Virus record (IMG/VR): IMGVR_UViG_3300025127_000141
Span: 1-31,456 of that record
Length of the DNA: 31,456 nt
Strand: one strand, 5' to 3'
Source of the DNA: a virus
Below are positions 2,703-28,238 of this stretch, in pieces; position 1 is the stretch's first letter, and each line of letters begins with the position of its first letter. The translations under genes were made by a program, and so were the position numbers. The notes beneath the pieces were generated by a model that did no database searches, was not told where the DNA came from, and saw only the letters and a list, made by a program, of their open reading frames with translations.

Positions 2703-2706
2703 CACC

Positions 2707-3135
2707 ATGAGGAATATATCTAAACTATTCCTCATGTTTTTCACAATGGGTGTAACCCCAGTCATAGCAGTGCCTGTGGTCCCAAATTTCCAACAGGGCT
2801 CGATGACCACTCACACGGAAACGACTTCTACTGTGACAGAAATTATAAATTCGATGGATTATAACACAGGCTATCAGTGGTCTGTCACAGGGAATGGGAT
2901 AACAACCAACGATAATTTATCACCAACCACTACAACTAATAATGTAACGATTGAAGGAGTGAATACAACATGGACAGGAGTAGGGTCAACACCAACCTTT
3001 ACGCAGACGACACCAGGAGCAGCGTTTCAATACACAGAAACGATGCAAGGACCAGGATTGTCGAATCACACAGTAATAAATCGCACAACAAACGTAACAA
3101 GCGTAACAGATACAACAAGTATCTTCAGTCAATAG
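2707..3135 (+). CDS. Exported Thr-rich protein (142 aa)
   Basis: Not recognised. ATG at 2707 is preferred to the in-frame TTG at 2695 because it leaves a 4-base gap after the previous stop and begins a good signal peptide (MRNISKLFLMFFTMGV, predicted cut near VIA). The mature part is Thr-, Asn- and Ser-rich, cysteine-free and probably all-beta, so it resembles the preceding gene in composition; true paralogy is unproven. From 2970 on, a second reading frame is used by the next gene (166-base overlap). Probably co-expressed and possibly co-assembled with its neighbours. Confidence 0.8.
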   Translation: MRNISKLFLMFFTMGVTPVIAVPVVPNFQQGSMTTHTETTSTVTEIINSMDYNTGYQWSVTGNGITTNDNLSPTTTTNNVTIEGVNTTWTGVGSTPTFTQTTPGAAFQYTETMQGPGLSNHTVINRTTNVTSVTDTTSIFSQ

Positions 3136-5831: not shown

Positions 5832-8800
5832 CTAGTTCTCGTCTGCCCTATAGGTATTTCCTCTTGGGAACAGCAATCCAACTCTAGGTCTCTTATCTTT
5901 TAATAATTCTCTACTGGTTCTGAGACCAGCAATTGTACCCGTCTCTGGTGCAGGTGGAGAGTTATTAGTCATGTACGTAATTTCTGCAAGACCTGTCCCT
6001 GATGGTGTTTCTGCTGGTACTGTTTCTTCATCAACTTCTTCAAAGAACCTAGGATAAATTTGACCAAACCCAAGTAATGCTGTAGGTCTACCAGGAGAAA
6101 CAAAAACAGTTGGGTTAAGATATGTGAGCGTATAATTTATAACTCCTGGGCGAGGTCCCTTAGTCCACAGTGAAGTATGTTGACTTCCAAAAATTTTATT
6201 AAGTCCTTGATCACGCATATCTGCACTACTTAGTGTTAAGGTGTAGTTAAGAGTGGGTGGTGGTGTTTGATCTGTCCAATCAGAAGTATGTTGACTTCCA
6301 AAAAGTTTATTGAGTGCTGGATCACGCATTTGAACACCAGTATATGCGAAGGTATGATTACCATATGGTTTTGTTCCGTTCGACGCAGTAATATTATTAA
6401 CATTCTGATTACCTGCTCCAAATAAAGTTCCCCAGTTTCCATCAATAGCAGGATCAACTTTCCAATACCTATCAAGATCGGATTGAGCCGAAGAACCAAA
6501 CTTAAGATTTCCTGGAACTGCTGGAGAACCACCAGTAAATGATCTTATATTATTAACTCCACTACCTGAGAGAGTAAAACTATATGTTTGTGCGTTACCT
6601 GTAGAAGTATCTGTTACTGTTACGTTGAAAGATGAGTCTTGAAAATAACTACTGGTAGAAGGTGATTCAAGATATCCTGTGGTTGTATTGAATGTTATAT
6701 TAGTACCAATTAAACTATCACCAGTAATTGTCCATGGTCCTACAGAAAGACTTTCTCCACCAACAGCAACAGCATTTGAATACCCTAGATTAATACTAAT
6801 ATTAGAGTTATGTGCAATAGGACTTTGACTAATTGTTCCTTGTCCTTGATCCCATGTGTATTGTTTCATCACAAAAGGGAACATAATACCTCTATTCACA
6901 GGAGGAGTAAAAGTTTTAGTTACATAATTATAGTACCCAGCATCAACGGGAAGACCAGTACCAATATTTAAACCAGTATTATTAGCTTCTTCATAATCGG
7001 TTCTAGTAGTTAAAGATACACTTCCATAGTGAGGACCATCAGTTTCTTGGAATGTACCAGTAACGATACCCATAGAAAATGGTCCAGCACCACCAACATT
7101 AACATTGCTAGATGTAAATACATTACTGGTACCAAGATCAATTGTTAAAGTATTTGCGACAGCATCTTCAGCGACGATTCCCCACCATTGTCTAAGTGCT
7201 TCAGTTAAATTAATATTACCTACAATTGTTGCTGGTGGATAAGGTGTTCTGATTTGTACTTTTTTGTTTATATTTCCTAAAAAATAACTAGCATCTGCTG
7301 GGTTAAACTTAACTACAATCTGAGAAGATCCATTACTAGTTGTAAATGGATCAGAGACAAGTTCTCTTTCATCCATTCCATTGATAGGATAGTTAGTATT
7401 TCTACCAGAATCTGTCCTGAATCCTGGGTTAGGAGTGTTAACCCAGTCTTTTGCTTTTTGTGGTAACCCAGTGGTAGTGTAATCATAATTAAAATAGTCC
7501 AACCATACTGCTAAAACACCAGCAACAATAGGTGTTGAGAAAGAAGTTCCACTAATATTAGAGTACCATGTACTCCACGATGCATCTAAGTAACTCGTTG
7601 TGGTTGTCCAGTCATACTTAGGACATTCAACTCTAGTTCCAGGAGCATAAACATCTACAGCGTCTCCGTAGTTAGAAAAATCAGCATAGGTATCGTTCCA
7701 TTCAGTAGCACCAACTACAACTTTAGGTTGATCGTAGTCAACAGCATTAAATCTATAATCTATTGGTCCTCCAGTCCTACTTCCAGGTTTCATTTTTGCT
7801 TGAAGAGGACCTAAGAAAGTATCACTTGCTGATAAAAATCCATTACCAGCAGAGCGACAAATAATAATATTATGTGACCTACAAACAGTGCTTTCAATCT
7901 CATCTAAAATTTCTATATCATTGTATGGATAGTCTGTACCCACATCATTTAATTCAATGATGGGTGTGCCTGCACTAGGTTGTGTAGCACCAAAAGAAGC
8001 ATTGATAATTGATGGTCTATTGTTATTTTTATAGTAACCACTATTAGTAACATGATGATTTATGACTGCTTGATATGCTGCAGCAATATCAGAAAATGTT
8101 CCAGCTAACTGAGAATTGAATGCTGCGAGTGAATAGATACGTGCTTTCTTAGCAACTCCATATCTGTATCCAGCTGCAAGAACTGCACAAGCAGTTCCAT
8201 GTCCGTTAGTATCTTCATTAATATTTGGAGTAAAGGCAGAAGCACCATAATGACTCAAAGAATATACTCTATAGTCTCCTTGTTCTGATGCACCATCTAA
8301 ATCAGCTCTATTATCTGGATGAAATAATTCTGGATGAAGTGCTGCTCCTGCACCAGTAGGTCTACTAGCACCTCTAACTCCACTATCAATCACATAGATA
8401 TCAATACCATCACCATCTCCTCCATCCCAACTGAAAGTACCACCACCAATTGTTAATGCAGTTCCTCTACCATTCTTACTAATTCTATTCAAATGCCACG
8501 TATTATAAGACGGGGAAATGGTCATGTATCTATCTGGAGATGTAGCATACCTTCCCAAACCAGGTGAACTAGGAGTGTAGAAAAATAATTTATCAGCTGA
8601 TGCACCAGAAAAAACTATATCAACACTATTCGTACCATAAGTAACACCTTGTGTGTATAAAGTACCACCTTTATGAGTACCATCTTGTGTCTCAGAAAAT
8701 TTAAGAGGGAAACTGGACATCGAAGCATCAGTTACATCGAATTTTATTGTCCATCCATTTGGGAAACCAGTTATTACATTTGGAGATCTATACCAAGGAG

Positions 8801-9176
8801 CGCTACCATTTGGAGAAAATTCATATAAGTTTTGTCCGTTGACTTGAGTCACACGAACATATTGAGTTGCAGTATAAGTGTTTACAGCAAACTTTGTATT
8901 ATCAAGAGGATCTAATACAGCATTATCTACCTGAATAGAATTAGATTCTTCCTCTATGGGATCTAATTTAATAATTGTATCCCAGAAACATGTGTGACCA
9001 CAACCATGAACATCATTTTTTACTTGGTCAATATTTTCATCAGGAATTTGAAAAATTAATATACGAAAACTTTCAAGACTCTCTTGCAACTGAGCATAAG
9101 AAAGTCTCGCTTCAATAGAAGCACGAATGTCTTCTAGAGGAGAATTACCGCATGCTTTTACTATTAACCTTTTCAT
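5832..9176 (-). CDS. Fibre-like virion protein with subtilisin (S8) protease domain (1114 aa)
   Basis: Residues about 255-575 form a peptidase S8 domain with the full triad: Asp264 (YVIDSG), His326 (NGHGTAC) and Ser545 (SGTSFSTPIVAG), with Asn445 (SAGNG) as the likely oxyanion residue. Residues 1-75 have the strand-helix pattern of an I9-like propeptide (tentative). Residues about 104-208 look like a cupredoxin-like beta domain without copper ligands. After the protease come beta-rich segments, an Ig-like unit (about 790-872) and two 37-residue repeats (949-1022) sharing LNK.FGSQHTS. There is no Sec signal. It lies at the end of the tail-fibre block, so a tail-associated protease acting on the host surface or on fibre maturation is inferred. 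Start ATG 9176, 11 bases after the upstream stop. Confidence 0.9.
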   Translation of the reverse strand: MKRLIVKACGNSPLEDIRASIEARLSYAQLQESLESFRILIFQIPDENIDQVKNDVHGCGHTCFWDTIIKLDPIEEESNSIQVDNAVLDPLDNTKFAVNTYTATQYVRVTQVNGQNLYEFSPNGSAPWYRSPNVITGFPNGWTIKFDVTDASMSSFPLKFSETQDGTHKGGTLYTQGVTYGTNSVDIVFSGASADKLFFYTPSSPGLGRYATSPDRYMTISPSYNTWHLNRISKNGRGTALTIGGGTFSWDGGDGDGIDIYVIDSGVRGASRPTGAGAALHPELFHPDNRADLDGASEQGDYRVYSLSHYGASAFTPNINEDTNGHGTACAVLAAGYRYGVAKKARIYSLAAFNSQLAGTFSDIAAAYQAVINHHVTNSGYYKNNNRPSIINASFGATQPSAGTPIIELNDVGTDYPYNDIEILDEIESTVCRSHNIIICRSAGNGFLSASDTFLGPLQAKMKPGSRTGGPIDYRFNAVDYDQPKVVVGATEWNDTYADFSNYGDAVDVYAPGTRVECPKYDWTTTTSYLDASWSTWYSNISGTSFSTPIVAGVLAVWLDYFNYDYTTTGLPQKAKDWVNTPNPGFRTDSGRNTNYPINGMDERELVSDPFTTSNGSSQIVVKFNPADASYFLGNINKKVQIRTPYPPATIVGNINLTEALRQWWGIVAEDAVANTLTIDLGTSNVFTSSNVNVGGAGPFSMGIVTGTFQETDGPHYGSVSLTTRTDYEEANNTGLNIGTGLPVDAGYYNYVTKTFTPPVNRGIMFPFVMKQYTWDQGQGTISQSPIAHNSNISINLGYSNAVAVGGESLSVGPWTITGDSLIGTNITFNTTTGYLESPSTSSYFQDSSFNVTVTDTSTGNAQTYSFTLSGSGVNNIRSFTGGSPAVPGNLKFGSSAQSDLDRYWKVDPAIDGNWGTLFGAGNQNVNNITASNGTKPYGNHTFAYTGVQMRDPALNKLFGSQHTSDWTDQTPPPTLNYTLTLSSADMRDQGLNKIFGSQHTSLWTKGPRPGVINYTLTYLNPTVFVSPGRPTALLGFGQIYPRFFEEVDEETVPAETPSGTGLAEITYMTNNSPPAPETGTIAGLRTSRELLKDKRPRVGLLFPRGNTYRADEN
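6111..6332 (-). repeat. Two 111-bp tandem repeats in the S8-protease gene
   Basis: Two neighbouring 111-bp units encode 37-residue repeats starting MRDPALNKLFGSQHTS and MRDQGLNKIFGSQHTS. They are clearly similar at DNA level (shared TTGACTTCCAAAAA stretch) but not identical. A more diverged relative (DLDRYWKV...NWGTLFGAG) may precede them. Confidence 0.75.
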
Positions 9177-9187
9177 CTTACCCCCAA

Positions 9188-11272
9188 TTAGGTGGTTCTA
9201 GCACAGAATAGAATTCCTCTAGTTCTATCTGTTTGATTATATGATCCTGTAATTATAGTGTAGATTTCTTGATTACCAACAGTAATTGTATCACCCTGTT
9301 GAATGTTTGCTGATGGAGTAGCGACATCAAAATCAATCATAGCAAAATCATTAGGTAGATAGTATGGTACTGGAGCCATTTTTATACTTAAAGGAAGACC
9401 TTTAATAACTGCGTTAAAGTTAGTACTATCGGGCATTATTTCTTTAGAGTAACTATTATTATAGTGACCACCCACACCTCTATAAGTATGATCTAAATTA
9501 GATCTGGTGTAGATATTAACGTAACCAGTAGTTCCTTCTTGGGAAGTTAATGATGTAGATCCATAAGTTGTACTCATAGAATAAGGTCCTCGACCTGTTT
9601 CGTAAGTTGAATCAGTTCTAGAGGGTAAGAATCCATACTCAGCAGATCTCTTAGAAAAACCACTTGAAACCGAGTTACCTGAGTCAAATTGACCAGCAAG
9701 AAAAGATTCAAATGATACGTAAGGTTGTGTTGGGTTAGCATCACCAGGTATGTGGATGATAGTAACACCACCTAAAAACAATTGATTGTAATCAAATAAA
9801 CTACTTGTATAATCATGAACAAACCAAGTCATAAAAGTATTATCAGCTAAGTTAGTTGATGATAAGTTAGGTTGCTTGAAAGAATAAACAACAAATTTTG
9901 GATCAAGTCCAGACTGATATGATATAAGATCTAGAGAGTATGCATTGTATGCATTCCTATCTGCGATGGGTTCTAGATGATCATCATAATTAGCGGTAGA
10001 AAAATGTGAAGGACTATATGGGGTTGAAGTACCAGACCAACTATCATTAAGACGATATGAACCTGGGGAACCATACTTATCAAGATAAGGAGATCCTTTG
10101 AATCGAGCATCACCCAAATAATTTGCTATATCATACTGAGTTACATCAGTTGTACCTGCATCATTGTAATGAAAATCATGACCTTTAGCTTGACGTGCGT
10201 TACCATCAATAGTGTATGAAGTAGGGAGTGTTGTTGTTTGTGGAGCGTAACCAGATCCTGTAATAATATTAATTTCTACTTGACCATTAACATCATCATT
10301 AAATTGATATGCTTGATAAGTAATTCCATATTTTTTATTTTCCTGAACTTCCCTTCTACATACACCCCAAGGAGAAACGGCTGCTTGTCTATTTTGCTTA
10401 TCAAAAAATGCGTTTGTTTGACCAAAAGTTGTAGGAACAATATTAGACTGTCCTGCAGCAACTACAGTAATTGTGTTGTAATTATTGTAAGCATATTCTC
10501 CTCTAAGATAATATGTTCCTGCTTGTCCTGGAGAAGGTTTCCATTTAAGATATTTACTATCTTCACTATAACTGGCGCCAGTATATTGTCTAGCACCTTG
10601 ATTAACAACATTCTTAACCGACATTCCCCACTCGAACTCTTGTTCATATCCTGTGTTTCCTAAGGTAGAAGTTGTGAACATATCATACCATAAAAGATAA
10701 GTCTCATGATCAGTTGGAACTTTCAATAAGAGAGTATCGCCTTCAGCAATAGTAATATTTCCTGCAGAAGTATTTTTATTGGTACTGACTGCACCATTAG
10801 CATCAATACCAGTCAGGTTACCAGAAGAATCATACTCACATGTATATGTACTACCACCCTGAGCAACTCCTTCAATGTAAACAGTTACTTGAATATCCTG
10901 TACACCATTAGAACCATTACCACCAAAATCCAAATCATTTAATGTTAAAATATCTCCATTTGCATATCCAGAACCAGGACGATTAGGGTTTACAGATCTT
11001 ACTTTTCCATTATATACACCTACCTGAAAGGTAGCACCAGTTCCACTCCCTGTCCAAGCAGTTGGAGCAACATCATAGTAATAATCCCAAGTAGCAGATG
11101 TATTGCGTTGAGTATTTTCTCCACCATAAGTAAAAGATTTAACACCAGCAACCAACCCAGTAACAGGACCCATGTGTGCTCCTACTGTAGTGTGTGCATC
11201 TTCTATCAAGTCGATAACATCACTTCTTGACCACCCAATTGGTTTACTATGTACAGTTCTTGTTACAGCCAT
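9188..11272 (-). CDS. Beta-rich virion structural protein (694 aa)
   Basis: No named family recognised. It is an Asn-, Tyr-, Ser- and Gly-rich protein without membrane segments or signal peptide. A segment near residues 88-140 (VRSVNPNRPGSGYANGD) has the 'GSGY..GD' pattern common in phage fibre and baseplate-like proteins. Position between a fibre gene (6-base gap) and the S8-protease gene (11-base gap), with no promoter between, places it in the same late transcript. Most likely a tail or fibre-associated structural protein. The C-terminus (YTIITGSYNQTDRTRGILFCARTT) is well ordered in prediction, arguing that the gene is full length. Confidence 0.8.
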   Translation of the reverse strand: MAVTRTVHSKPIGWSRSDVIDLIEDAHTTVGAHMGPVTGLVAGVKSFTYGGENTQRNTSATWDYYYDVAPTAWTGSGTGATFQVGVYNGKVRSVNPNRPGSGYANGDILTLNDLDFGGNGSNGVQDIQVTVYIEGVAQGGSTYTCEYDSSGNLTGIDANGAVSTNKNTSAGNITIAEGDTLLLKVPTDHETYLLWYDMFTTSTLGNTGYEQEFEWGMSVKNVVNQGARQYTGASYSEDSKYLKWKPSPGQAGTYYLRGEYAYNNYNTITVVAAGQSNIVPTTFGQTNAFFDKQNRQAAVSPWGVCRREVQENKKYGITYQAYQFNDDVNGQVEINIITGSGYAPQTTTLPTSYTIDGNARQAKGHDFHYNDAGTTDVTQYDIANYLGDARFKGSPYLDKYGSPGSYRLNDSWSGTSTPYSPSHFSTANYDDHLEPIADRNAYNAYSLDLISYQSGLDPKFVVYSFKQPNLSSTNLADNTFMTWFVHDYTSSLFDYNQLFLGGVTIIHIPGDANPTQPYVSFESFLAGQFDSGNSVSSGFSKRSAEYGFLPSRTDSTYETGRGPYSMSTTYGSTSLTSQEGTTGYVNIYTRSNLDHTYRGVGGHYNNSYSKEIMPDSTNFNAVIKGLPLSIKMAPVPYYLPNDFAMIDFDVATPSANIQQGDTITVGNQEIYTIITGSYNQTDRTRGILFCARTT

Positions 11273-13852: not shown

Positions 13853-16800
13853 TTAAGTCTTAATAATGAAAACCAAAGCATAATATGGTGGTAAGTTGTT
13901 GTGTGCTTGTCCACCACCTTCGTTACTCATACTAAATGTATCAGCAGGATAACCACCAGCACCACCATATCCAATCGAGGTAGAACCTCCACCTGGAAAA
14001 TATTTCTTATTATCGAATGTTGTATCATGTTTATGTGCTGGCATTTGATCTGTTGTTAAGGTCACTGTTGATTCACCACCAGTAGCACCAGCATTATAAG
14101 TGGAACCAGCACCAACAATAAACCTATCTCTCAGATCGGGAACGTATTGACCAACGATTGCTGCTAAAGCACCGTATGAACCAGTTGATTGTCCATCACA
14201 CAATAACCAACCTGCAGGTGCTGTTGATCCACCATACATTATAATAGCTCCAACAGGAGCAGCTTCAGTAACACGAGCATCTGCTACCCATGCGCTAGTA
14301 GATGCCGACCATCTTACAACGTCTCCCTCAGCAAAACCACTACTTTGTGCAGTTACAACTTCTTTGCCTTCATAGGTAAGCACACCATTAGGAGCACCAA
14401 GAGAGAATGATTGTGGAGGATTCTGATCGTTAGTAAACTTAATACTATTATCACTTAAGAATAGGTGTCTTACTTTTTTCTCTGCTGTTCCAATATCATA
14501 AGTAGCATTTGATGTAGGTACAATATGGAAATCATATTGACCCATCAAACTCTCGACATCACTATCACCATATCCAGCACCAAGATCAGAATAAGTAGTA
14601 CCATCATTAGTGAACTCCCACTTATCTGAAGTTTCATTCCAACGAATTTCTACATTAGTGGATGTACCTCTTTCAATTGTGAGTCCACCATTTTGTGATG
14701 GTGTACCTGTCTCATCACTGTTAAGAGTAAGATTAGAATCTCCAATATTTACAGTGTTACTATTGACTGTGGTTGTCGTTCCGTTGACTGTTAGATTGTT
14801 ACATGTAAAGTCTCCAACTGTTGCTGCTAGAGCACTTGTATTGCCTGCTGTTAATACTTCATTTAGTGTTGGTGCAGTACCAGTTAAATCGGGAGCCATT
14901 TCCCATGAAGCACCATTATATTTTAAAATATATCCATTCTGAGCATTAGAAACTGCATCTACATCACTAAGATCATTAAGAGCAAGTGACTGTTGGGCAT
15001 TTAGAACATTTATTGTTCCAAACATCGCAGGATGTGCTGTACATTGATAGTACAATGTATCAGGTGCATTCATTGGAACAACAAATATTAAATCTGTATT
15101 ATTAGCTGCATCGTTATTTGTTACACCACTATTATATTGTGTACCACCACCTGCTTGAGCAGTAGTCGATTGAATTCTAAAAGGATGTCCACCTGTTCTA
15201 TTTTTAAAGACATATGTCTGACCTCTTATGAGGTATAGAGTTGGATCCTCAGCGTTTGTAGGGAATCCTTCGCCAGCAAATACATAATGAGTCGCTGCTG
15301 TTTGTGTAAGAGTCCATGAGATTACTGGTTGTCCAGGTATATCGTCAAGATTATTTGCTACCCACTGACTTGTTGTACCATCATACTGTAATACATCTCC
15401 AGTAGTTATAGTTCCAGTGGTTACATCAGTTAGAGCATTAAGAGTTGTTGCTCCACCACCGCCTCCTCCAGATACGGTAGACCATGTGACGCCACCCGAT
15501 CCATTACTGGTCAAGACCTGTCCACTAGTCCCGTTGGAAGTTGGGTAAGTTAAACCACCAGCAACTAATCCATCAGTGTATACAAATCTCCATTTCTTAG
15601 TTGTGCTACCAAGATCAAATGTTCCATCAGTAAATGGTAGTGCAGTTCCATTTAAACTCATTCCTGCAAACGTAGGAGAACTAGTTGAATCTAAACTAAA
15701 CTGTGTTCCTACTAGATTGATACCAGTTCCAGCAGTGTATGTTGTATCAGTATCAACCTGTGCTACCCAAGCATAGTCAGTACCGTTCCAACTTAAAATT
15801 TGATTTGATGTAGCACCACCAGTGTTAAGGTGAGAATCTACATCACCAACTGTAAAGGATGTACCACTACCGCCACCACCTCCAACAGGATTGGCATCAA
15901 CCCATACAGTAGAGTAGAGAATTTTTAATCTTCCTTTATCTGATTCCCACCATAAGTCACCTGAAGTAGGGTTAGCAGGAGGGTTATCAGATATGGTTAC
16001 ATTAGCACCACCTCCACCAGAAGGAGCAGCAACAAACTCAAGTGCTGTTCCACCAGAGTTAACTGCAATAAATTGTCCAGGAGTTCCTAACGAAGATGCA
16101 GTATCACTTAGTCCTACAAAAGTAGTAGATCCAGTAGTTCCTGTTTGATCTGCTACCCAAACAAAATCAGTACCATTCCAACTAAGAATTTGACCTGCTG
16201 AAGCACTAGAAGTATTGAGGTGTGTGCTTACATCAGAGTCACCATAAGATGAGGTAACACCATTAGTCCAGTTACTTCCATTGTAATAAAGAACCTGACC
16301 TGAACTTGGAGATGAAATAGTAACATCAGTAAGATGATCTATAGCAGTTACAGTTGATCCACCACTATTACCTGCTGACCATACAATATTTCCTGTGCCA
16401 TCACTTGTTAAAACTTGACCTGATGTCCCGTTGGTATTTGGATAGGTTAAACCTCCAGCAGTTAATTGTCCAACTGAGATATTGTTGATAGTGGTATTAC
16501 CTCTAGTTGTTACACTATCAAGAGTATCTGTTTCAGATGTTAAGTATCCTGCAGAAGAATGATCACCCCAACTATACGCTAAATTCCAATTTGCTTTATC
16601 TGTATTTGTTGCTTGTAGATATCCAACAATAGAATGATCACCCCAATTATATGCTGTATTCCAATTAGAAATATTTGTACTAGTAATATTTGCTGCGGGT
16701 GATGCAGAAAATATTGGATCTGTTTCACTTGAAATAAATGAACTGATATCGGGTGGAGTAAATGTAAGTAGGTTTTGTGCAGAGTTAAATGTTAAACTAC

Positions 16801-18904
16801 CAGAACCAGAGGGGATAGAGTTGTTGTTAACAACCATCGAACTGTTCTGTTGTATACCACCACCAGCTGTAACAGTAGTAGGAACCCATCTATTACCATT
16901 AGAACTAAAACTTAGAACTTGTCCATCACCAGGGTGTCCTGCTTGAACATCTAATAGATCTCCAAGTTGTGTGATACCACCTATGGGAATCCACTCACCG
17001 TCTTGATACATTTCAAGTCGGTTAGAAACATTATTATAAATTACAGATCCGTTTAGAACATTTAGATAATCACGTTCACTAATAGTTTTACTTGGGAACT
17101 TGATGTAATCTAGTGCTTGTAGTTCTGTAATTGTTGCACCAGTAGATACAATATTATCTGATACAAGATATCCTTTAAGTGTTAACTCACCTTGAATAGG
17201 TTCAAATTTAATTTTATCTGAACCAGCAAGTCCTCCATTGTTATTATATTGTATTGAGTAGTCACTACCACCAGCAACAATACCACCAGAACCTGCTGCA
17301 CCTGTGTTTGGTGCTGTAGAAATATTTGTAATTCTACCACTAGGATCAACAGATATAACAGGAATGACTCCAGAACTACCATAAACTCCGTTAGGAACTC
17401 CAGTTAAGTTTGATAGTTGTGCTCCAGAACCAGTGTATGTTGTAGCGTTAACAGTACCAGTAACATCAATACCAGTAAAAGTAGGTATTGCACTTGCGCT
17501 AAGGTCTTGAGCAACAGAAAACTCTAGTCTTGTTCCAGTTCTTGTTAGAGTAACACCAGTACCAGCAGATAAAACTACCTCTTCAGAATTTCCAAGATTA
17601 TCTGTTAAACGAATACTTTTTCTATTTGGTTGCTGTTGATTTTCTACAGATAGATTGTATGTTGTGTTATCAGCATTGATGGTTAGTCTTTTCTGGACAT
17701 TATCTAAACTGACTAAAGCACTACCAGTACCAATAAATCTAACAATATCATTAGAGTCTACAGATGTGGTAACACTGTTATCTCCAATACTCCATCCATT
17801 ATATGTTGGAGGTATAGAAGCCCAAGATGTATTTTGTCCATCGGTTGTTAGATACTTACTAGAGTTTGCTGCTTGTGATGGTAAGAATGCATTCAAAGCA
17901 TCATTAGCATTAGTTTGACCTGTACCACCATATGCAATACCGATAGTTTGTGCTTCCCATCTACCAGCAGATAGAACACCAACAGATTCTAAACTTGATG
18001 CTCTGATAATATTTCCAAGTCCTGTGCTGGTAATAACTTCATCACCATTGATTTTATAAGTTCTTCCACTAGCAAGATCAAAATGCTCAGAAGAAGTCCA
18101 TGAGTCATTAGTATTACTCCACAGAATAGTATGTGGAGAATCACCTTTAAGTCTAATTCCACCACCATCTGCTACAGAATCTGTAGGTATTACAACATCA
18201 TTTAAGTTAATAAATTTGTCTTGAGTAGATACAGTAACTGTATTACTTGTAGTGGTTGTACCTTGTACAATTAAATTTCCACTAATAGTTACTTGCTGGA
18301 ATGTAACAGGATCATTTGGACCTACAGGTTGTCCAATCTTAATCTTGTTATCACCAGTGATTGTAACACCACTCTCTCCAGTGTATGTTGTATTGTCGTC
18401 GTTAACATTGATGGTAAATGTTCTACCAGACTGGGTGATTGTCGCTGCACCAGTTCCGATAAGATTAAGATCACCATCGGTATAATTCTGTCCGTTAACA
18501 CCTAATCGTGTAACAGTATTTGTATCAGTGAATGAAGAATCTATAGTAATTCTTCCACCACTTCTTGTAAGAGAAACATTATTGCCTGCTACAAGAACAA
18601 CATCGGTGTATCCACTTCCAGATCCACCAGCAGACAATCTAATTACTTTATCAGTAGCAGGGTTAGCACCATCAATAGTGCTAAGTGTGTAAGTAGTATT
18701 GTTATCTGTGAGGGGTACATTGCTCCAACCCACTCCAGTAGTAGTCCTAGAAAGAACTTGACCAGTCAATCCAGTGTCACCATTTAAAGAGATGATACCC
18801 TCAACTACCAAAGATTTAGTAGAGGGAACTCGAAGACCTTCTACTGCTAAAGTAGGTCCACTATTGCTTTGATTGATGAGTTCATCTACTCTAATTTTAG
18901 ACAT
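13853..18904 (-). CDS. Giant modular tail fibre with cupredoxin-like and collar domains (1683 aa)
   Basis: The N-terminus (MSKIRVDELINQ) matches that of the 1032-residue fibre (MSRARVDQIVNQ), suggesting a shared virion-attachment motif. The long beta-rich shaft includes WGDHS..GYL units (about residues 740-790) and a GDLWWESDKGRLKI motif (about 980-995). Residues about 1193-1300 form a cupredoxin-like domain with His1240, Cys1288, His1291 and Met1294 (QCTAHPAM). A segment close to the 853-residue fibre (TGTPSQNGGLTIERG) follows. From about residue 1550 a tail-collar domain begins (APAGWLLCDGQS, VPDLRDRFIVGAG, QMPAHKHD) and runs to the end (YYALVFIIKT). A GATAAATA late box lies 28 bases upstream, with GGGGAAG before the ATG. 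Likely a principal host-adhesion fibre. Confidence 0.9.
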   Translation of the reverse strand: MSKIRVDELINQSNSGPTLAVEGLRVPSTKSLVVEGIISLNGDTGLTGQVLSRTTTGVGWSNVPLTDNNTTYTLSTIDGANPATDKVIRLSAGGSGSGYTDVVLVAGNNVSLTRSGGRITIDSSFTDTNTVTRLGVNGQNYTDGDLNLIGTGAATITQSGRTFTINVNDDNTTYTGESGVTITGDNKIKIGQPVGPNDPVTFQQVTISGNLIVQGTTTTSNTVTVSTQDKFINLNDVVIPTDSVADGGGIRLKGDSPHTILWSNTNDSWTSSEHFDLASGRTYKINGDEVITSTGLGNIIRASSLESVGVLSAGRWEAQTIGIAYGGTGQTNANDALNAFLPSQAANSSKYLTTDGQNTSWASIPPTYNGWSIGDNSVTTSVDSNDIVRFIGTGSALVSLDNVQKRLTINADNTTYNLSVENQQQPNRKSIRLTDNLGNSEEVVLSAGTGVTLTRTGTRLEFSVAQDLSASAIPTFTGIDVTGTVNATTYTGSGAQLSNLTGVPNGVYGSSGVIPVISVDPSGRITNISTAPNTGAAGSGGIVAGGSDYSIQYNNNGGLAGSDKIKFEPIQGELTLKGYLVSDNIVSTGATITELQALDYIKFPSKTISERDYLNVLNGSVIYNNVSNRLEMYQDGEWIPIGGITQLGDLLDVQAGHPGDGQVLSFSSNGNRWVPTTVTAGGGIQQNSSMVVNNNSIPSGSGSLTFNSAQNLLTFTPPDISSFISSETDPIFSASPAANITSTNISNWNTAYNWGDHSIVGYLQATNTDKANWNLAYSWGDHSSAGYLTSETDTLDSVTTRGNTTINNISVGQLTAGGLTYPNTNGTSGQVLTSDGTGNIVWSAGNSGGSTVTAIDHLTDVTISSPSSGQVLYYNGSNWTNGVTSSYGDSDVSTHLNTSSASAGQILSWNGTDFVWVADQTGTTGSTTFVGLSDTASSLGTPGQFIAVNSGGTALEFVAAPSGGGGANVTISDNPPANPTSGDLWWESDKGRLKILYSTVWVDANPVGGGGGSGTSFTVGDVDSHLNTGGATSNQILSWNGTDYAWVAQVDTDTTYTAGTGINLVGTQFSLDSTSSPTFAGMSLNGTALPFTDGTFDLGSTTKKWRFVYTDGLVAGGLTYPTSNGTSGQVLTSNGSGGVTWSTVSGGGGGGATTLNALTDVTTGTITTGDVLQYDGTTSQWVANNLDDIPGQPVISWTLTQTAATHYVFAGEGFPTNAEDPTLYLIRGQTYVFKNRTGGHPFRIQSTTAQAGGGTQYNSGVTNNDAANNTDLIFVVPMNAPDTLYYQCTAHPAMFGTINVLNAQQSLALNDLSDVDAVSNAQNGYILKYNGASWEMAPDLTGTAPTLNEVLTAGNTSALAATVGDFTCNNLTVNGTTTTVNSNTVNIGDSNLTLNSDETGTPSQNGGLTIERGTSTNVEIRWNETSDKWEFTNDGTTYSDLGAGYGDSDVESLMGQYDFHIVPTSNATYDIGTAEKKVRHLFLSDNSIKFTNDQNPPQSFSLGAPNGVLTYEGKEVVTAQSSGFAEGDVVRWSASTSAWVADARVTEAAPVGAIIMYGGSTAPAGWLLCDGQSTGSYGALAAIVGQYVPDLRDRFIVGAGSTYNAGATGGESTVTLTTDQMPAHKHDTTFDNKKYFPGGGSTSIGYGGAGGYPADTFSMSNEGGGQAHNNLPPYYALVFIIKT

Positions 18905-18941: not shown

Positions 18942-19526
18942 TTAGGGATAATAATGATCGTATAGTTTCTTGCTAGTTTCACAGTTACGTTTAAACTTAG
19001 TGAAAATATCAACAACCATATCATTCGCATTTGTTGGTGGTTCAGTCCATGAATCTATGTTTATGGGAGCATCATATTGTTGTGGAAGATCCCTAACCCA
19101 TTGTCTCCACGTTTCCCAACCAGTATCATCTAAGTTACTCAATAGAATATAAGGATCAGATGATGCTAACATCTCATCCCTAGATTTTTTAGCCCTTGTA
19201 CTCCAAGTAATATAATTTCGCATGTAATCTTCATCATCTAGTCTCTGTAACTCTGCATCCTGTTCTTCAACAGCTTTTTCTGCTTCGTTCCAAAGTCTTT
19301 CCGCTAAGGCACCGAAAGTATTTATCTCATCCTGAGTGAGAGATCTATGTTCTCCAGTGCTTAATTCTGTATCAGATTCAGCAGGAGCAATTTCATCGTT
19401 ATAACGAATACACCAATACTTCTCATCAATTTCTTCTAAGAAATTTCTCATTCCATAGTATTTTGTAGAGTTCCACAGAACTTGACCATCATAGTCAGTC
19501 CTACCTCTCATAAGAAAAAATTTCAT
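18942..19526 (-). CDS. Probable tail-fibre assembly chaperone (194 aa)
   Basis: The C-terminal half carries the pattern R..ML..SD.......DTGWETWRQWVRDLPQQ followed by SWTEPP. This matches the layout of phage tail assembly chaperones (Phage_tail_APC type), where an R..LLA.TDW segment leads to a helix with YRQALRDIP.Q. The middle is a long charged helix (LWNEAEKAVEEQDAELQRL). Position supports it: between two large fibre genes, where T4-like phages place fibre-folding helpers. The ATG at 19526 overlaps the upstream stop as ATGA, so it is translationally coupled. The family match is by pattern recognition only. Confidence 0.65.
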   Translation of the reverse strand: MKFFLMRGRTDYDGQVLWNSTKYYGMRNFLEEIDEKYWCIRYNDEIAPAESDTELSTGEHRSLTQDEINTFGALAERLWNEAEKAVEEQDAELQRLDDEDYMRNYITWSTRAKKSRDEMLASSDPYILLSNLDDTGWETWRQWVRDLPQQYDAPINIDSWTEPPTNANDMVVDIFTKFKRNCETSKKLYDHYYP

Positions 19527-22995: not shown

Positions 22996-23003
22996 TAAGA
23001 CAA

Positions 23004-23028
23004 TAAAAAAAGGGGTCTAATGACCCCT
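23004..23028 (-). terminator. Rho-independent terminator between talC block and fibre block
   Basis: On the minus strand AGGGGTC (23028-23022), loop ATTA, GACCCCT (23017-23011) is followed by an unbroken T-run (23010-23005). Stem, tetraloop and U-tract are ideal for intrinsic termination. It separates upstream genes from the late fibre transcript that begins at 22988. Confidence 0.92.
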
Positions 23029-23059
23029 AACTTATGAGCTGACCCACCAGGGCAGGTTT

Positions 23060-23404
23060 TCAGTCTTTCCGAGACTCATCATCCTTTGTTTTAAATTCAA
23101 GTACATTATCAAGTGAATCCATATCGCTACCTGGACGTGTACCAGGGATAAATTCAATTTGATCTGCACCTGCTATGTAGTCAGATTCAAATGTGATTGG
23201 TTCGTTACTAAGATACCCTTGATAATCAAAATCTAAATTTATATTTCCAAGATCTACATCAGGAGTTTTAGAGTTGATACTTCTTATCAACTGTAGTGCT
23301 TTGAAAAGATCTTTAATGTTTTCATCTTTTTTATTATTAAGACAGGAAATAATTGCCTGTCTAAGTGAGTCCTCTGCTGTATCTAGATGGTTCTTTTCAG
23401 ACAT
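23060..23404 (-). CDS. Hypothetical protein (114 aa)
   Basis: Not recognised. The N-terminal half is helical (TAEDSLRQAIISCLNNKK and NIKDLFKALQLIRSI); the C-terminal half is acidic (VDLGNINLDFDYQGYL, then FIPGTRPGSDMDSLD). No signal or membrane segment. The frame opens earlier at 23428, but the ATG at 23404 is preferred because it leaves a 5-base gap after the previous stop rather than an overlap. It is the last gene before the terminator at 23004-23028. Confidence 0.7.
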   Translation of the reverse strand: MSEKNHLDTAEDSLRQAIISCLNNKKDENIKDLFKALQLIRSINSKTPDVDLGNINLDFDYQGYLSNEPITFESDYIAGADQIEFIPGTRPGSDMDSLDNVLEFKTKDDESRKD

Positions 23405-23408
23405 AATT

Positions 23409-23648
23409 TTATGAAGCATTGTGTGCATAAGCAGCGACCTCTGGATCAGGATCTAACCACTTGGTGTATTCAAAATCTTCCATAGCAGTGTCTAGTTGTA
23501 TGGAATTATCCAGTAGGTACATATCGTTGTACCTCTCAGTCCATTCGTTCCATTTTTGAATGCGGTAGTCTGGTTTACCGTTAGTTTTTAAGTAACCTAC
23601 CTGTACATATCGGTAGGGAAATCTTTCAAGTAAGACAGTTGGTTTCAT
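23409..23648 (-). CDS. Hypothetical protein (79 aa)
   Basis: Not recognised. A soluble protein rich in Tyr, Asp and Trp, starting MKPTVLLERFPYRYVQVGY and ending in DPDPEVAAYAHNAS. Segment YRIQKWNEWTERYNDMYLL may be helical. ATG at 23648; 11-base gap from the upstream membrane-protein gene and a 4-base gap to the next start. Only its conserved-looking position in a tight operon supports it. Confidence 0.65.
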   Translation of the reverse strand: MKPTVLLERFPYRYVQVGYLKTNGKPDYRIQKWNEWTERYNDMYLLDNSIQLDTAMEDFEYTKWLDPDPEVAAYAHNAS

Positions 23649-23659
23649 GATGTGAGTGA

Positions 23660-24004
23660 TTACTCGTTTATTGTAGCATGTTCTTTTTCATCTTGCAACA
23701 CTTGTTTTCTACTCCAAAGTGCTACTAAAATTAGAACAACATAGAACAAAGTATCATCTATCATAACAAGGAAGAAAAGAAAACTACCACCATAGCGTAA
23801 TGTGTCTGGAATTCTTTTAGTTATTCTCTGTATGAAGGGAGATATATTTCTTTCAAATTTATAGTAAAGAATTGCAGCGACCGTCACTGTGATCTCACTC
23901 ATTGGAACAATAAAGTATAGAGATAAGAACACAAAGATAGACCAGTAATGTCTTGGTGGTATCTTTCTAAGTAGTCTTACGTATTTTTTACGTAGCGTCA
24001 TCAT
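23660..24004 (-). CDS. Small membrane protein (114 aa)
   Basis: Not recognised. A basic N-terminus (MMTLRKKYVRLLRKIPPRHY) leads into a long hydrophobic region of about two passes (WSIFVFLSLYFIVPM, ITVTVAAILYY). A basic loop follows, then one or two more passes (GGSFLFFLVM, TLFYVVLILVALW) and a polar tail. It overlaps the antitoxin-like gene upstream by 17 bases, so it occupies the position where a toxin would normally sit downstream of a Phd-type antitoxin. There is no toxin-family match I can name. Confidence 0.75.
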   Translation of the reverse strand: MMTLRKKYVRLLRKIPPRHYWSIFVFLSLYFIVPMSEITVTVAAILYYKFERNISPFIQRITKRIPDTLRYGGSFLFFLVMIDDTLFYVVLILVALWSRKQVLQDEKEHATINE

Positions 24005-24194
24005 GATCTCTTAGATAATCATATTCATCTAAGTCCATACTAACACAAGATTTGACATCTTCAAAGTCTTTAGCAGGAACCATCATAACTTTTCTACCAT
24101 CTTTTTTAACAATCAAAAAAGACTCGCCTTGCTCACATTTTTCAATGTAATTGTCGTAGTTTTTTTGTAATTCTTCTTCAGTTATTTCAACCAT
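23988..24194 (-). CDS. Phd/YefM-like antitoxin protein (68 aa)
   Basis: The sequence fits the Phd/YefM fold in outline: EEELQKNYDNYIEKCEQGESFLI, then KKDGRKVMMVPAKDFED, matching the family pattern of a helix, G.S..I...G...A.LVPA..Y. In type II toxin-antitoxin systems such proteins bind DNA at their own promoter and neutralise an RNase or kinase toxin through a C-terminal tail. Here the acidic tail (MDLDEYDYLRDHDDAT) is present but no RelE- or Doc-like toxin adjoins it. It overlaps talC by 8 bases and the membrane-protein gene by 17. A solitary antitoxin could neutralise a host toxin. Confidence 0.7.
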   Translation of the reverse strand: MVEITEEELQKNYDNYIEKCEQGESFLIVKKDGRKVMMVPAKDFEDVKSCVSMDLDEYDYLRDHDDAT

Positions 24195-24867
24195 TGTTTA
24201 TAAGTTTTTGAGTTTCTTCAAAATCTTTCTGGAAAATATCTAGACCTACATCAGTTAGTACATGTTTGTACATACCATCAAAGATCTTAGAAGGCATAGT
24301 AACTATATCAGCACCTTGTGCAAATGAATGTTCTACATCTCCTACTGATCTAATAGATGCAGATAAAATCTCAGGATTATTATATTGAGCAGCTATATGT
24401 AGTGGAAGAACCTCTCTAATTCTCCTGATTAGATTACATCCACCAAATCTTTGGTCATCTACACGACCTACAAATGGAGATAGGTATCTAGCACCTGCTT
24501 TTACTGCTAAGATTGCTTGAGATACACTAAAAATAAGAGTAACATTTACCTTAGCATTACAATCAGTATTAATTCCAAGATCTCTACAAACCGCAAGACC
24601 ATCTGGATCACAAGGAACTTTAATAGTTGCTTGCTCACCAAATTTTTCAAACAAACGCATACCTTCGCTGAACATTTCTTCAACAGAACCAACAACTTCC
24701 ATACTGATATCAGGAACACCTGCATCAATTAGTTCTTGGTATACATCCTCAGGATCTTTTCCTGATTTTCTGATAAGAGATGGGTTAGTGGTTACTCCAT
24801 CAATCAATCCTGTTTCAAATCTAGATATGATCTCTTGTGTATCAGCAGAGTCAATAAAAAGTTTCAT
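24187..24867 (-). CDS. talC: Transaldolase, small phage (TalC) type (226 aa)
   Basis: A TalC/fructose-6-phosphate aldolase-type TIM-barrel enzyme. Markers are MKLFIDSADTQEI at the start, GVTTNPSLI, TIKVPCD with the Schiff-base Lys83, NVTLIFSVSQAILAVKAGA, SPFVGRVDD and a DIVTMPSKI stretch. Length matches the short subfamily (about 220 residues), not the long bacterial transaldolase. In cyanophages it is thought to push host carbon through the pentose phosphate pathway towards NADPH and ribose for nucleotide synthesis, which fits with nrdA/nrdB in the same window. Start ATG 24867 lies 2 bases after the upstream stop; its end overlaps the antitoxin-like gene by 8 bases. Confidence 0.95.
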   Translation of the reverse strand: MKLFIDSADTQEIISRFETGLIDGVTTNPSLIRKSGKDPEDVYQELIDAGVPDISMEVVGSVEEMFSEGMRLFEKFGEQATIKVPCDPDGLAVCRDLGINTDCNAKVNVTLIFSVSQAILAVKAGARYLSPFVGRVDDQRFGGCNLIRRIREVLPLHIAAQYNNPEILSASIRSVGDVEHSFAQGADIVTMPSKIFDGMYKHVLTDVGLDIFQKDFEETQKLINNG

Positions 24868-24869
24868 GT

Positions 24870-25055
24870 TTATTTAATTTGAAGTTCTTCTACATCCCAG
24901 TGCCACCCGATAGATTTTATGTAATCAAATGTATCATCCATATATGTTCTATCATCATTATCGTACTTCCTTTCACATAGAAAATTTCTCATTTCTATGA
25001 TTGATCGGAAGGTTCCTTTATGAGTATAGTTTTCATCGTACAAATGATACTTCAT
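24870..25055 (-). CDS. Hypothetical protein (61 aa)
   Basis: Not recognised. A small soluble protein rich in Tyr, Asp and Arg, with FRSIIEMRNFLCERKYDNDD in the middle and a WHWDVEELQIK end. It overlaps the GIY-YIG gene by 4 bases (ATGA) and ends 2 bases before talC, so it is translated as part of a coupled chain. No motif indicates function. Confidence 0.7.
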   Translation of the reverse strand: MKYHLYDENYTHKGTFRSIIEMRNFLCERKYDNDDRTYMDDTFDYIKSIGWHWDVEELQIK

Positions 25056-25489
25056 GATTCAAAATAGTCTTTCCTGTAGTACCGTCCAAGGATGTTGCTA
25101 TTATAGTACATTGGCGACCCGTCGTCAAGTGCCTCAGTTAACACATTGTTTAAAAATAATTGTCTTGTCTCTTCGTAATTTGTTTTACCTAGAGTTTTAT
25201 GTAAAGATTTTATCTCTCTGGTAAACGAATCTCTTCCCATCTCTTTGATGTCCAACTTGAGTTCGGGGCACGATCCATAATATCTCTTCCAGTCTGATTC
25301 ACTTGTAACTCTACGCTTTCCACCTCTGGGTTTCCTCTTCTGCACGAAATACTTTCTACCGATGTACTTTTTGCCTGTTGACTTATTAGTAATGACGTAG
25401 ACGTAACCGAAGAAATCGCCAATGTCGTCAGAAGTGAAAGGTTTACCCTCATATATCCAGGGGTTTTCATAAACTCGTTCCTTAACCAC
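25052..25489 (-). CDS. SegE-type GIY-YIG endonuclease-like protein (145 aa)
   Basis: The GIY-YIG core is seen as YVYVIT (residues 29-34) and KYIGRKYF (41-48), followed by a basic stretch (KRKPRGGKRR) and a WKRYYGS..ELK segment typical of SegE-like phage enzymes. These cut DNA and may act as free-standing homing endonucleases or in DNA processing. The reading KERVYENPW at the very start argues for the GTG at 25489. An out-of-frame ATG at 25497 sits closer to the AGGAGAG motif, so the true initiation is unsettled. The late promoter box at 25513-25520 lies just upstream, an arrangement like several T4 homing endonuclease genes. Activity cannot be judged from sequence. Confidence 0.8.
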   Translation of the reverse strand: MVKERVYENPWIYEGKPFTSDDIGDFFGYVYVITNKSTGKKYIGRKYFVQKRKPRGGKRRVTSESDWKRYYGSCPELKLDIKEMGRDSFTREIKSLHKTLGKTNYEETRQLFLNNVLTEALDDGSPMYYNSNILGRYYRKDYFES

Positions 25490-25512
25490 TTGATCATAAT
25501 ATTACTCTCCTA

Positions 25513-25520
25513 TATTTATA
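25513..25520 (-). promoter_or_regulatory. T4-type late promoter box (TATAAATA) upstream of the GIY-YIG gene
   Basis: The minus strand reads TATAAATA across the stop codon of the methyltransferase gene. The expected start near 25506 falls inside the AGGAGAG motif, so only longer transcripts would carry that ribosome site. The box is also part of a small CTAT/ATAG hairpin. Confidence 0.5.
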
Positions 25521-26124
25521 GTTGTATACAACAGGTGCTTGCCTGTGGTGAGTCTTTATTTTCATAGATGTTATAGTAATTAAACCCATGGTATGAACAG
25601 ATGTCTTCTATCATTTCCATAGATTGACGTTTACTAGGAGCACTATCTATAAAGACCATACTACCTCTTGATAATGATGGTAGATACTTGTTGAACATGT
25701 CTTCTATTGTCTTAGGATGGTGATTATAATCAGAGAAAATCATATCAACACTCTCTGGTTCTAAATGTCTACCAACCTCAGTGTAAAAATCTTCAACGAG
25801 ACATCTATAAAAGGTAACACCATCTTGAATATCAAATTTATTATACAAATCTACAATATAATTCTCATAAGAACGTTGTGATAAACCTACAATCTCTGCT
25901 GCTTCAACAAATTTACTTCCATCATCAATAGTATGTAAAATACCACCACCATTTTCTTTTATTGCCTCATTCATCCACAACGTAGATGCACCTAGACCAG
26001 TACCAAATTCTATTATCTGTCTAGGTTTTAACATTTTTACCCAAGAATACAGGTGTATGCAAAGATCCTCAGATCCAAATACATCTCCTATATCATCTGT
26101 ATATTCTTTGATCTTATCAATCAT
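25516..26124 (-). CDS. SAM-dependent methyltransferase-like protein (202 aa)
   Basis: Class I methyltransferase fold: motif I IIEFGTGLGAST (residues 37-48), an acidic strand end (LHTIDDGSKF), DMIFSDYNHH and MVFIDSAPSKR later. The layout resembles O-methyltransferases and small-molecule or sugar-modifying enzymes found in phages rather than DNA methyltransferases, since no DPPY/NPPY or Pro-Cys motif appears. The substrate is unknown. It overlaps the DNA methyltransferase gene by 4 bases (ATGA), so the two are co-translated and may act together. Its end overlaps a late promoter box. Confidence 0.78.
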   Translation of the reverse strand: MIDKIKEYTDDIGDVFGSEDLCIHLYSWVKMLKPRQIIEFGTGLGASTLWMNEAIKENGGGILHTIDDGSKFVEAAEIVGLSQRSYENYIVDLYNKFDIQDGVTFYRCLVEDFYTEVGRHLEPESVDMIFSDYNHHPKTIEDMFNKYLPSLSRGSMVFIDSAPSKRQSMEMIEDICSYHGFNYYNIYENKDSPQASTCCIQL

Positions 26125-27074
26125 TCTTCAGTATTGATATCACATCCAGCATCAATCAATGCTTCAGTAGCAATCTTGATTGAGTCTTTAGAAATGTCCA
26201 TAGTGGTACAATCACGTCCTAGATTATAACATGCAAGAGCAGTAGTTCCTGACCCACAGAAAGGGTCTAAAACTTTACCATCAGGAGGACATGATGTCCT
26301 TACAATACGTTCAAGTAACTTAACTGGTTTTTGTGTTGGATATTTACGCTTGTTCTTTTCAGAACGTGAGATGAAATGAATATCATCCCAGAAATTTTGA
26401 ATTGGAGACCCTTTGGACTCATCTAGATAGATCTTTTTGTACGGAAGATTAGCACCCCAGTGAATAAGATTTTGCTCGTGTAAAGTTTTAGTTTTATCTT
26501 CAGCAAATCTCCACCCATACTGAGGATTATACCCATTGTATTCATACATGTGACCAATACGAGACTTCTCTCCAGTCAACTTACCTAGTGCATAAAATCC
26601 TTTATCATCTTTGTTCTTAAAAGAGTTCTTAGCATAGGTTTCATCTAGTGGTTGATACTCTACATTGAAGTATGGATCACCTTTTCTGAATACAAGAATA
26701 GAATCTACTATGTTACCCCACCCCTTACGGATGTTGTTCTTAGGTCCAGAACGTTTCCAAGAAATATTTGTATAAAACTTAGACCTAACGTCCTTTGTAA
26801 TATCACCTAAGACTAAAGCATTAGAATCAAAGTTGTTGTGAGCATACAACCAACCATTAGGTTTGAGTGCAGCAAAACAATCTTGAATTACAGATGCATA
26901 CCACTCAATATATGCGTCTGTTGACTCCCATTTATCATCAAATGCTACCTTCTTATCTTTTTCAAACATAAAAAATTCTCGATCCAATCCGAAGGGAGGA
27001 TCGAGATATACAACATCATATTCGTCATCATAATTTGAAAGGTTTTCAACCCTTTCTCTCAAAATTTTGATCAT
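26121..27074 (-). CDS. DNA methyltransferase, beta class (N6-adenine or N4-cytosine) (317 aa)
   Basis: Catalytic motif IV DPPF (residues 25-28, in VVYLDPPFGLD) precedes the SAM-binding motif I DPFCGSGT (270-277), the order that defines the beta class of amino-methyltransferases. A central target-recognition region separates them, including WGNIVDSILVFRKG. Products of this family methylate phage DNA, usually protecting it from host restriction or marking it for packaging or repair. No partner restriction enzyme is nearby, so it is probably a solitary modification enzyme. It overlaps nrdB and the following methyltransferase by 4 bases each (ATGA). The recognition sequence cannot be read from the protein. 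Confidence 0.9.
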   Translation of the reverse strand: MIKILRERVENLSNYDDEYDVVYLDPPFGLDREFFMFEKDKKVAFDDKWESTDAYIEWYASVIQDCFAALKPNGWLYAHNNFDSNALVLGDITKDVRSKFYTNISWKRSGPKNNIRKGWGNIVDSILVFRKGDPYFNVEYQPLDETYAKNSFKNKDDKGFYALGKLTGEKSRIGHMYEYNGYNPQYGWRFAEDKTKTLHEQNLIHWGANLPYKKIYLDESKGSPIQNFWDDIHFISRSEKNKRKYPTQKPVKLLERIVRTSCPPDGKVLDPFCGSGTTALACYNLGRDCTTMDISKDSIKIATEALIDAGCDINTEE

Positions 27075-28222
27075 AATTTAAAATTAGAAAACGTATCTTT
27101 CTTTACGTCTTGTTTAATACTACCTATCATGTAAGATTCTACTTCTGTTTCTTGTGGTGCTACTTGTAGTCCTTTAGAAGACAACCAGTGTGCTGTCCAT
27201 GGAAGCGGATTGTTAGCGATTGGAGCATCGAAGATAGGATTTAGTCCAATAGATTTTAGACGGCGGTTAGCAGTCCATTCTACGTACTTAGAGAGTAGTT
27301 TGTCGTTTAAACCGATGATAGATCCATCTTTGAACAAGTAATTTGCCCAAGACTTCTCTTCTTCAACGCACTCTCTGAACATATTATACACGTTTTCCTC
27401 TTCTTCCGCAACTATTTGTTGCATATCTGCATCATCACCCTTCTGCCAGTTCTTAATAATATTCTGAGTCACAGTCATGTGCTGTGATTCATCTCTAGCA
27501 ATGAGTCCGATGATCTTAGCAGATCCTTCCAAGAGTTTAAGTTCGCCGAAGGCGAAAGAACATGCAAACGATACGTAAAATCTAACTCCTTCAAGGATGT
27601 AGACATTCGCAATCGCTCTGTATAGTTTTCTTTTGAGTTCATATAGTTCATTTTGTGCTAGTGGTACTCCAGTTAGATTATGTTCCCACATTCTTCCAGA
27701 CCCATATTCACTTGCTGCCTGTAAGAAATTATCATATGCTGCTGTAACAGACTTTGCTCTCTGTAAAATCTTTTCATCATCTAGAATAGTATCGAAGACC
27801 TCTGATGGATCAGGGTATACATTCTTAATAATGTGTGTGTATGATCTACTATGAATCATCTCCATAGTCTGCCATATGTTCATGCACCCTTCTAACTCAG
27901 GTAGTGAGCAGAAAGGACTAAAAGCCATCCCAGGACCACGCCCTTGTACAGAGTCAAGGAGGATCTGATACTTGAGATTGCTAGTAAATATGTGTTTCTG
28001 TGCATCATTTAGAGTCTGATAGTCAGCACGATCTTTTTGAAGAGATACCTCTTCTGGACGCCAAAAATAACCCAACTGAGTCTGTGTTAATCTGTCGAAG
28101 ATAGGGTACTTAAATTTATCATAACGTTGGACACCAAGGGGAGGTCCAAAAAACATTTTTTGTTTTGTGTTATCAACAATGTCTGTGTTAAACACAGTCA
28201 TTCCTTTAACTTTAGTACGCAT
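27071..28222 (-). CDS. nrdB: Ribonucleotide reductase class Ia, small subunit (R2)
   Basis: R2 supplies the tyrosyl radical used by NrdA to reduce ribonucleotides. Diiron and radical residues are visible: DSVQGRGPG (Asp ligand), EMIHSRSYTHI (Glu, His and radical Tyr), ILEGVRFYVSF (Glu) and IARDESQHMT (Glu, His). The chosen ATG at 28222 has GGAG five bases before it, lies 16 bases after the nrdA stop and gives 383 residues, near the usual 375-390. Alternatives are GTG 28258, preceded by AGGAGG inside nrdA, and ATG 28201 (MTVFNTD), where homologues commonly begin. The 3' end overlaps the DNA methyltransferase gene as ATGA. Confidence 0.95.
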   Translation of the reverse strand: MRTKVKGMTVFNTDIVDNTKQKMFFGPPLGVQRYDKFKYPIFDRLTQTQLGYFWRPEEVSLQKDRADYQTLNDAQKHIFTSNLKYQILLDSVQGRGPGMAFSPFCSLPELEGCMNIWQTMEMIHSRSYTHIIKNVYPDPSEVFDTILDDEKILQRAKSVTAAYDNFLQAASEYGSGRMWEHNLTGVPLAQNELYELKRKLYRAIANVYILEGVRFYVSFACSFAFGELKLLEGSAKIIGLIARDESQHMTVTQNIIKNWQKGDDADMQQIVAEEEENVYNMFRECVEEEKSWANYLFKDGSIIGLNDKLLSKYVEWTANRRLKSIGLNPIFDAPIANNPLPWTAHWLSSKGLQVAPQETEVESYMIGSIKQDVKKDTFSNFKL

Positions 28223-28238
28223 TGGTTCTCCGTTGGTT

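Follow-up and report, generated by a model that had tools for sequence, protein, structure and literature searches.

At type-1 sites copper is held tightly in a rigid setting, and reduction changes the structure little. Amicyanin and plastocyanin, the blue copper proteins with which the domain described here is compared, are small proteins of one domain that carry electrons. Metal in a phage fibre has been reported for T4, where gp37 of the long tail fibre holds octahedral iron through paired-histidine HxH motifs and a Trojan Horse proposal has been made (PMC11705849). In marine phages, the gp9-type connectors of PHROG_677 ('baseplate wedge tail fiber protein connector', for example Syn9 YP_717769 and P-SSM7 ADO99012) are proteins of ~400 aa that begin with a T4 gp9/gp10-like region and end in a cupredoxin, and the tail spike of P-SSM2 (YP_214529) is a fibre with two copies of the domain that adjoins a subtilase-domain protein. 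Cellular members of the same subfamily are found as exported lipoproteins of marine Flavobacteriaceae (for example L130, 143 aa), which carry an apparent signal peptide and lipobox and lie outside any virion.

The window analysed here, by which we mean the whole stretch of 31,456 nucleotides, belongs to a virus of marine cyanobacteria and encodes a giant tail fibre on its minus strand (ORF P0001, 13853..18904, 1683 aa), which matched the PHROG tail fibre families phrog_9729 (E 1e-55), phrog_677 (E 1e-38) and phrog_1800 (E 5e-26). Near its C-terminal end lies a Phage Tail Collar domain (14117..14251, minus strand, residues 1552-1596; Pfam PF07484, 37.4 bits, cut-off 24), together with a Gp10_C-like fibre tip (13877..14128, minus strand, residues 1593-1676; PF21939) that scored 23.5 bits, under the Pfam cut-off of 27. 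A tail fibre assembly protein is encoded just upstream of the fibre gene (18942..19526, minus strand; phrog_4912, E 6.5e-8). When the whole fibre gene was compared with phages by megablast, zero matches were obtained. The order primase-nrdA-nrdB-talC-fibre at 23000-31456 is shared with S-WAM2 and ACG-2014h, NrdA being ~82% identical, whereas the fibre cassette of the window is mosaic; a cupredoxin was not detectable in the region of S-WAM2 examined. Two further observations concern the surroundings of the fibre. Three plus-strand ORFs at 2184-3839 face the minus-strand cluster and belong to families of unknown function (phrog_564, phrog_650/DUF6322 and phrog_848); two of the three have apparent signal peptides, and two overlap in different frames. 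At 25052-25489 (minus strand) lies a SegE-like GIY-YIG endonuclease (PF19835), for which the PHROG label 'NAD synthetase' is likely a propagated misannotation.

Within the fibre, a cupredoxin-like domain spans residues 1195-1301 (15002..15322, minus strand), and was recognised by a family profile with an E value of 3e-44. The sequence, together with alignments A1 (47 relatives) and A3 (including marine bacterial intermediates and the P-SSM2 plastocyanin), places the ligands at His1240 (first His, 15185..15187), Cys1288 (thiolate, 15041..15043), His1291 (second His, 15032..15034) and Met1294 (axial, 15023..15025), all on the minus strand. The residues follow the cupredoxin ligand order H...C-x2-4-H-x2-5-M, the actual spacing being C-x2-H-x2-M. 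An earlier note on this DNA had numbered the four residues exactly so, and the peptides it quoted are found in the ORF. The HYVF stretch that it had made part of the pattern is also present (residues 1206-1209), but the His of that stretch is neither a ligand nor conserved; the Tyr next to it (Y21 of the domain), by contrast, does not vary in A1. A chance origin of the motif was dropped, since H-x(30,75)-C-x2-H-x(2,4)-M appeared in only 4 of 20,000 shuffles of the fibre protein. One ligand-bearing cupredoxin copy is recognisable in the window.

Searched against the PDB, the A1 profile retrieved plastocyanin (2plt, E 2.3e-6), nitrite reductase (2vmj, 1e-5) and amicyanin (1sf3, 1.4e-5), as well as rusticyanin, pseudoazurin and azurin, nearly all of the matches being type-1 copper proteins. 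An hhalign comparison with five cellular or phage cupredoxins gave a probability of 97% (E 6e-11). The profile was needed for this, as the single fibre sequence reached E 0.56 at best against the PDB. The window copy also lies under every curated copper-protein cut-off, with 13.6 bits (E 0.09) in one search and 13.1 bits in another against the 21.2 required for Pfam PF00127 Copper-bind and 16.5 bits against the equivalog cut-off of 110.2 for the NCBIfam amicyanin model TIGR02657. In A3, the invariant columns are G42, F47, H54, C102, H105, M108 and G110, which comprise the ligands (all four), the Gly and Phe of the core, and a Gly two residues after the Met, so that the fibre, a flavobacterial lipoprotein and the P-SSM2 plastocyanin share four invariant columns at the ligand positions. 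The pairwise alignments made with HMMER and hhalign misplace the first His by at least about two residues, whereas the intermediates-based alignment aligns it. The HMMER alignment matches the Pro residues with each other and leaves the first His displaced by two residues; this register was discarded, since relatives replace the Pro by Asp or other residues and keep the His, and since A3 aligns the His directly.

The spacing of the site, His...Cys-x2-His-x2-Met, is that of amicyanin, and a gap of two residues between His and Met is found in 109 of the 111 ligand-complete copies; the ligand columns and the Gly/Phe core align with plastocyanin-like proteins. After the ligand His the fibre has Pro (HPF), a context shared with the multicopper oxidase L137 (SHPFHIH), where amicyanin and plastocyanin have Asn. 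An imported fragment of a petE gene was dropped as an explanation, since the domain forms a distinct subfamily and the 131-aa plastocyanin of P-SSM2 matches the profile with only E 0.006. On the basis of these profiles and alignments, residues 1195-1301 belong to the cupredoxin superfamily, with a predicted complete Cys-His2-Met type-1 site. The central claim of the earlier note, that the fibre holds a cupredoxin with complete type 1 ligands, is thus borne out by profile homology to blue copper proteins and by the aligned ligands.

A tblastn search located the domain in 346 GenBank phage records, almost all from phages of marine Synechococcus, Prochlorococcus or SAR11, the hosts being marine as far as they are named; with E values up to 10 the number rose to 382, essentially all still marine. 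Its commonest setting is the C-terminus of the gp9-type baseplate 'tail fiber connector', as in Syn9, where the first 60 residues of the protein are T4 gp9/gp10-like and the cupredoxin stands at the end. It is also found in long fibres, in the podovirus P-GSP1 and in one Methylophilales phage. Window residues 1019-1302 correspond to positions 184-410 of the 412 of the PHROG_677 profile, and the window cupredoxin itself to positions 303-410, the C-terminal domain (E 8e-40), with the same four ligands. The likeness is one of the C-terminal module and not of the full length, as a profile search found the gp9 baseplate-binding N-terminus unmatched in the window fibre, in which the module is internal to 1683 aa. 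The domain of the P-SSM2 tail spike is 53.8% identical to that of the window fibre, the fibre cluster of which likewise includes a subtilase, but the alignment of the two fibres is limited to the cupredoxin domains.

Most of the cellular relatives are proteins that marine Bacteroidetes and Gammaproteobacteria export, and several of them exceed the Pfam Copper-bind cut-off, among them the flavobacterial lipoproteins, which have complete ligands and the subfamily pattern (HPFYIK...YYYQCSAHNGMYG). Two proteins from Bacteroidetes MAGs with apparent signal peptides, L087 and L088, carry a domain that is 50-61% identical to the phage one, suggesting from sequence likeness an exchange of the domain between phage and bacterium; the C-terminus of L087 resembles an S74-type chaperone. 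The domain that the earlier note had described in a single fibre is not peculiar to it: it is mobile and serves as an exchangeable unit in both the tail fibres and the gp9-type baseplate connectors of marine phages. Mass spectrometry of purified S-SZBM1 particles identified a 498-aa 'baseplate wedge protein' with 9 peptides (PMC9146016, Table 1). This protein corresponds, by length and annotation rather than by locus tag, to the 498-aa protein L071 of S-SZBM1, in which the domain occupies the C-terminal 100 residues. One domain-bearing relative, identified by that length and annotation, is therefore located in the virion.

Six of the 103 columns of A1 are invariant (Y21, H54, Y100, C102, H105 and M108), and these are the four ligands and two Tyr. 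As some loci had been collected by a pattern containing YYQC..H, the four ligand columns were masked and the search was repeated. All four ligands were kept in 87 of the 97 distinct viral copies found with the masked profile, a figure in which some ascertainment bias remains, as that profile was built from A1, itself drawn partly from YYQC..H loci. By eye, several apparent losses proved to be copies cut or shifted by local alignment (L056 and L117), cut (L016) or with a shifted His (L118). Real losses were those of Cys and His in L005 and L062, of the axial Met only in L036 and L121, and of the first-His region, which is deleted in L053/L054. Cys and the second His were lost as a pair; among the viral copies, none that truly lacked only one of the two was seen. 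In a FastTree tree of 126 copies, with changes counted by parsimony, amino-acid changes over codon changes amounted to 5/32 for H54, 3/19 for C102, 2/35 for H105 and 6/6 for M108, against 26/50 for the median column, the codon changes of Cys and the two His being mostly synonymous. The ligand residues are under strong and direct purifying selection. The suggestion of selection, which had been made from ligand retention in the one fibre, was upheld by both the masked profile and the changes on the tree, and when close homologues were checked for free loss of the ligands these were found to be kept; the closest sister of the window fibre, L001, is 90% identical over the full length and has its ligands intact.

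The axial Met is replaced in L036 (2945-3337), L016 (2036-2443) and L121 (ORF residues 949-1041), with Gln in YYWCHTHTNQGG, and in this these copies resemble stellacyanin-type sites. That some viral copies do without the axial Met or without the Cys/His pair indicates that the fold can live without metal. A ligand-free case lies in the window itself, where a degenerate cupredoxin copy (8520..8831, minus strand, boundaries approximate) forms the N-terminus of the virion subtilase ORF. It matches the ligand-bearing copies L077 (E 1.6e-17), L047 (3e-7) and L117 (8e-7), and has substituted F for the first H, T for C, S for the second H and L for M; its counterpart in MED4-213, L077, has kept all four. 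The subtilase (S8) of the fibre cluster (5832-9176, minus strand, 1114 aa; PF00082) has intact catalytic motifs (DSG 264, GHGT 325 and GTSFSTP 543). A subtilase or T4-GC_292 protein is present in the corresponding cluster of P-SSM2, S-WAM2 and S-MbCM7, and that of S-MbCM7 has a C-terminal cupredoxin domain. Next to the subtilase, a 694-aa protein of the fibre cluster (9188-11272, minus strand) contains a segment, GDTLLLKV...AGTYYLRGEY, which looks like another ligand-free sandwich; the protein had no Pfam or PHROG match, and the segment was unmatched by the cupredoxin profile.

These ligand-free copies bear on the possibility that the domain works in apo form as a structural module, its four residues being kept for packing or hydrogen bonds alone and metal being absent. 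The fibre consists of repetitive structural modules, the two non-ligand Tyr columns are as invariant as the ligands, and copies without ligands exist, so that the fold can serve fibres without metal. The same copies, however, show that the fold does not need these residues: as the subtilase copy changed all four together, the fold can persist in the fibre cluster without ligands, which argues that their retention in the fibre is about metal and not packing. In addition, the joint loss of Cys and the second His is more readily explained by a cofactor held in common than by separate roles in packing, and it would be strange to conserve a solitary free Cys that is exposed to seawater. An apo module thus appears quite unlikely.

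We therefore consider it very probable that metal is bound at the fibre site, and probable, with rather less assurance, that this metal is copper. Cys-His2-Met sites can take other divalent metals in vitro, and assembly begins in a cytoplasm poor in free copper, so that Zn or Fe could be envisaged at the site; the residues conserved here, the axial Met among them, nevertheless make up the type-1 copper signature, and an axial Met is rarely kept for Zn, leaving another metal improbable. That the domain is a true cupredoxin, the metal site of which is maintained because it binds copper, is in our view likely. The metal of the window fibre is predicted from sequence; as in T4 gp37 a phage fibre would hold metal, but T4 binds iron octahedrally through HxH motifs, whereas the window fibre has a single-domain Cys-His2-Met site.

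We propose that the metal, most likely copper, would be held in the mature virion, having been taken up from host lysate or from seawater after the fibre leaves the reducing cytoplasm. It may then lock the beta-sandwich, together with its exposed C-x2-H-x2-M loop, so as to make the module rigid and stable, this being the least certain step, and such a module would serve adhesion or the docking of other fibre parts rather than electron transfer. A structural or docking role of the site is held with slightly less than even confidence. The site could alternatively be redox-active, its copper taking an electron at the host surface and so triggering or tuning a rearrangement of fibre or baseplate, as a switch or sensor. 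It has the ligand set of electron-transfer proteins with amicyanin-type loop spacing, and the gp9-type proteins carry the domain as the C-terminal portion of the link between baseplate and fibre, which is where a trigger would be expected to work. The window's fibre cluster, however, yielded no recognisable redox partner, and type-1 sites are built to change little on reduction, which makes them poor switches; a lock suits such a rigid site better than a switch, and the redox reading is unlikely.

Copper might also act as bait, a metal-uptake system of the host surface recognising the fibre copper much as the Trojan Horse hypothesis holds for iron. We know of no receptor for such adhesion, copper buried in a type-1 site makes no obvious bait, and the domain is internal in a fibre that ends in collar and Gp10_C-like parts. 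Copper-baited adhesion is thus very doubtful, even though iron in T4 tail fibres and an HxH proposal for marine phages have been published (PMC11705849) and hardly any phages carry the domain other than those of marine bacteria, for which trace metals are important. Both the redox and the bait roles are less likely than a metal-locked structural or docking module.

The fold and the site are already known; in the open-access literature searched, we found no account of a cupredoxin, plastocyanin or copper-binding domain in a tail fiber, cyanophage or virion, and thus no published description of marine phages retaining such a domain in their fibres and baseplate connectors. With this finding a name can be given to the C-terminal domain of a baseplate protein that is conserved in marine phages and that the examined phage records annotate by position only. 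In the widest, and tentative, form of the idea, the virions of many marine T4-like phages may be copper proteins, with a type-1 site in connector and fibres that is loaded outside the cell and needed for fibre function, so that phages would form a strongly bound pool of seawater copper and might have a redox- or copper-dependent step of infection. If the site is loaded, chelation or a Cys mutant would offer a simple way to ask whether metal is needed for the infection of picocyanobacteria, the phage-iron idea would extend to copper, with a possible strong copper ligand added to seawater, and some very abundant viruses of the ocean would have metalloprotein virions, with a defined copper site present at least once in each connector or fibre chain.
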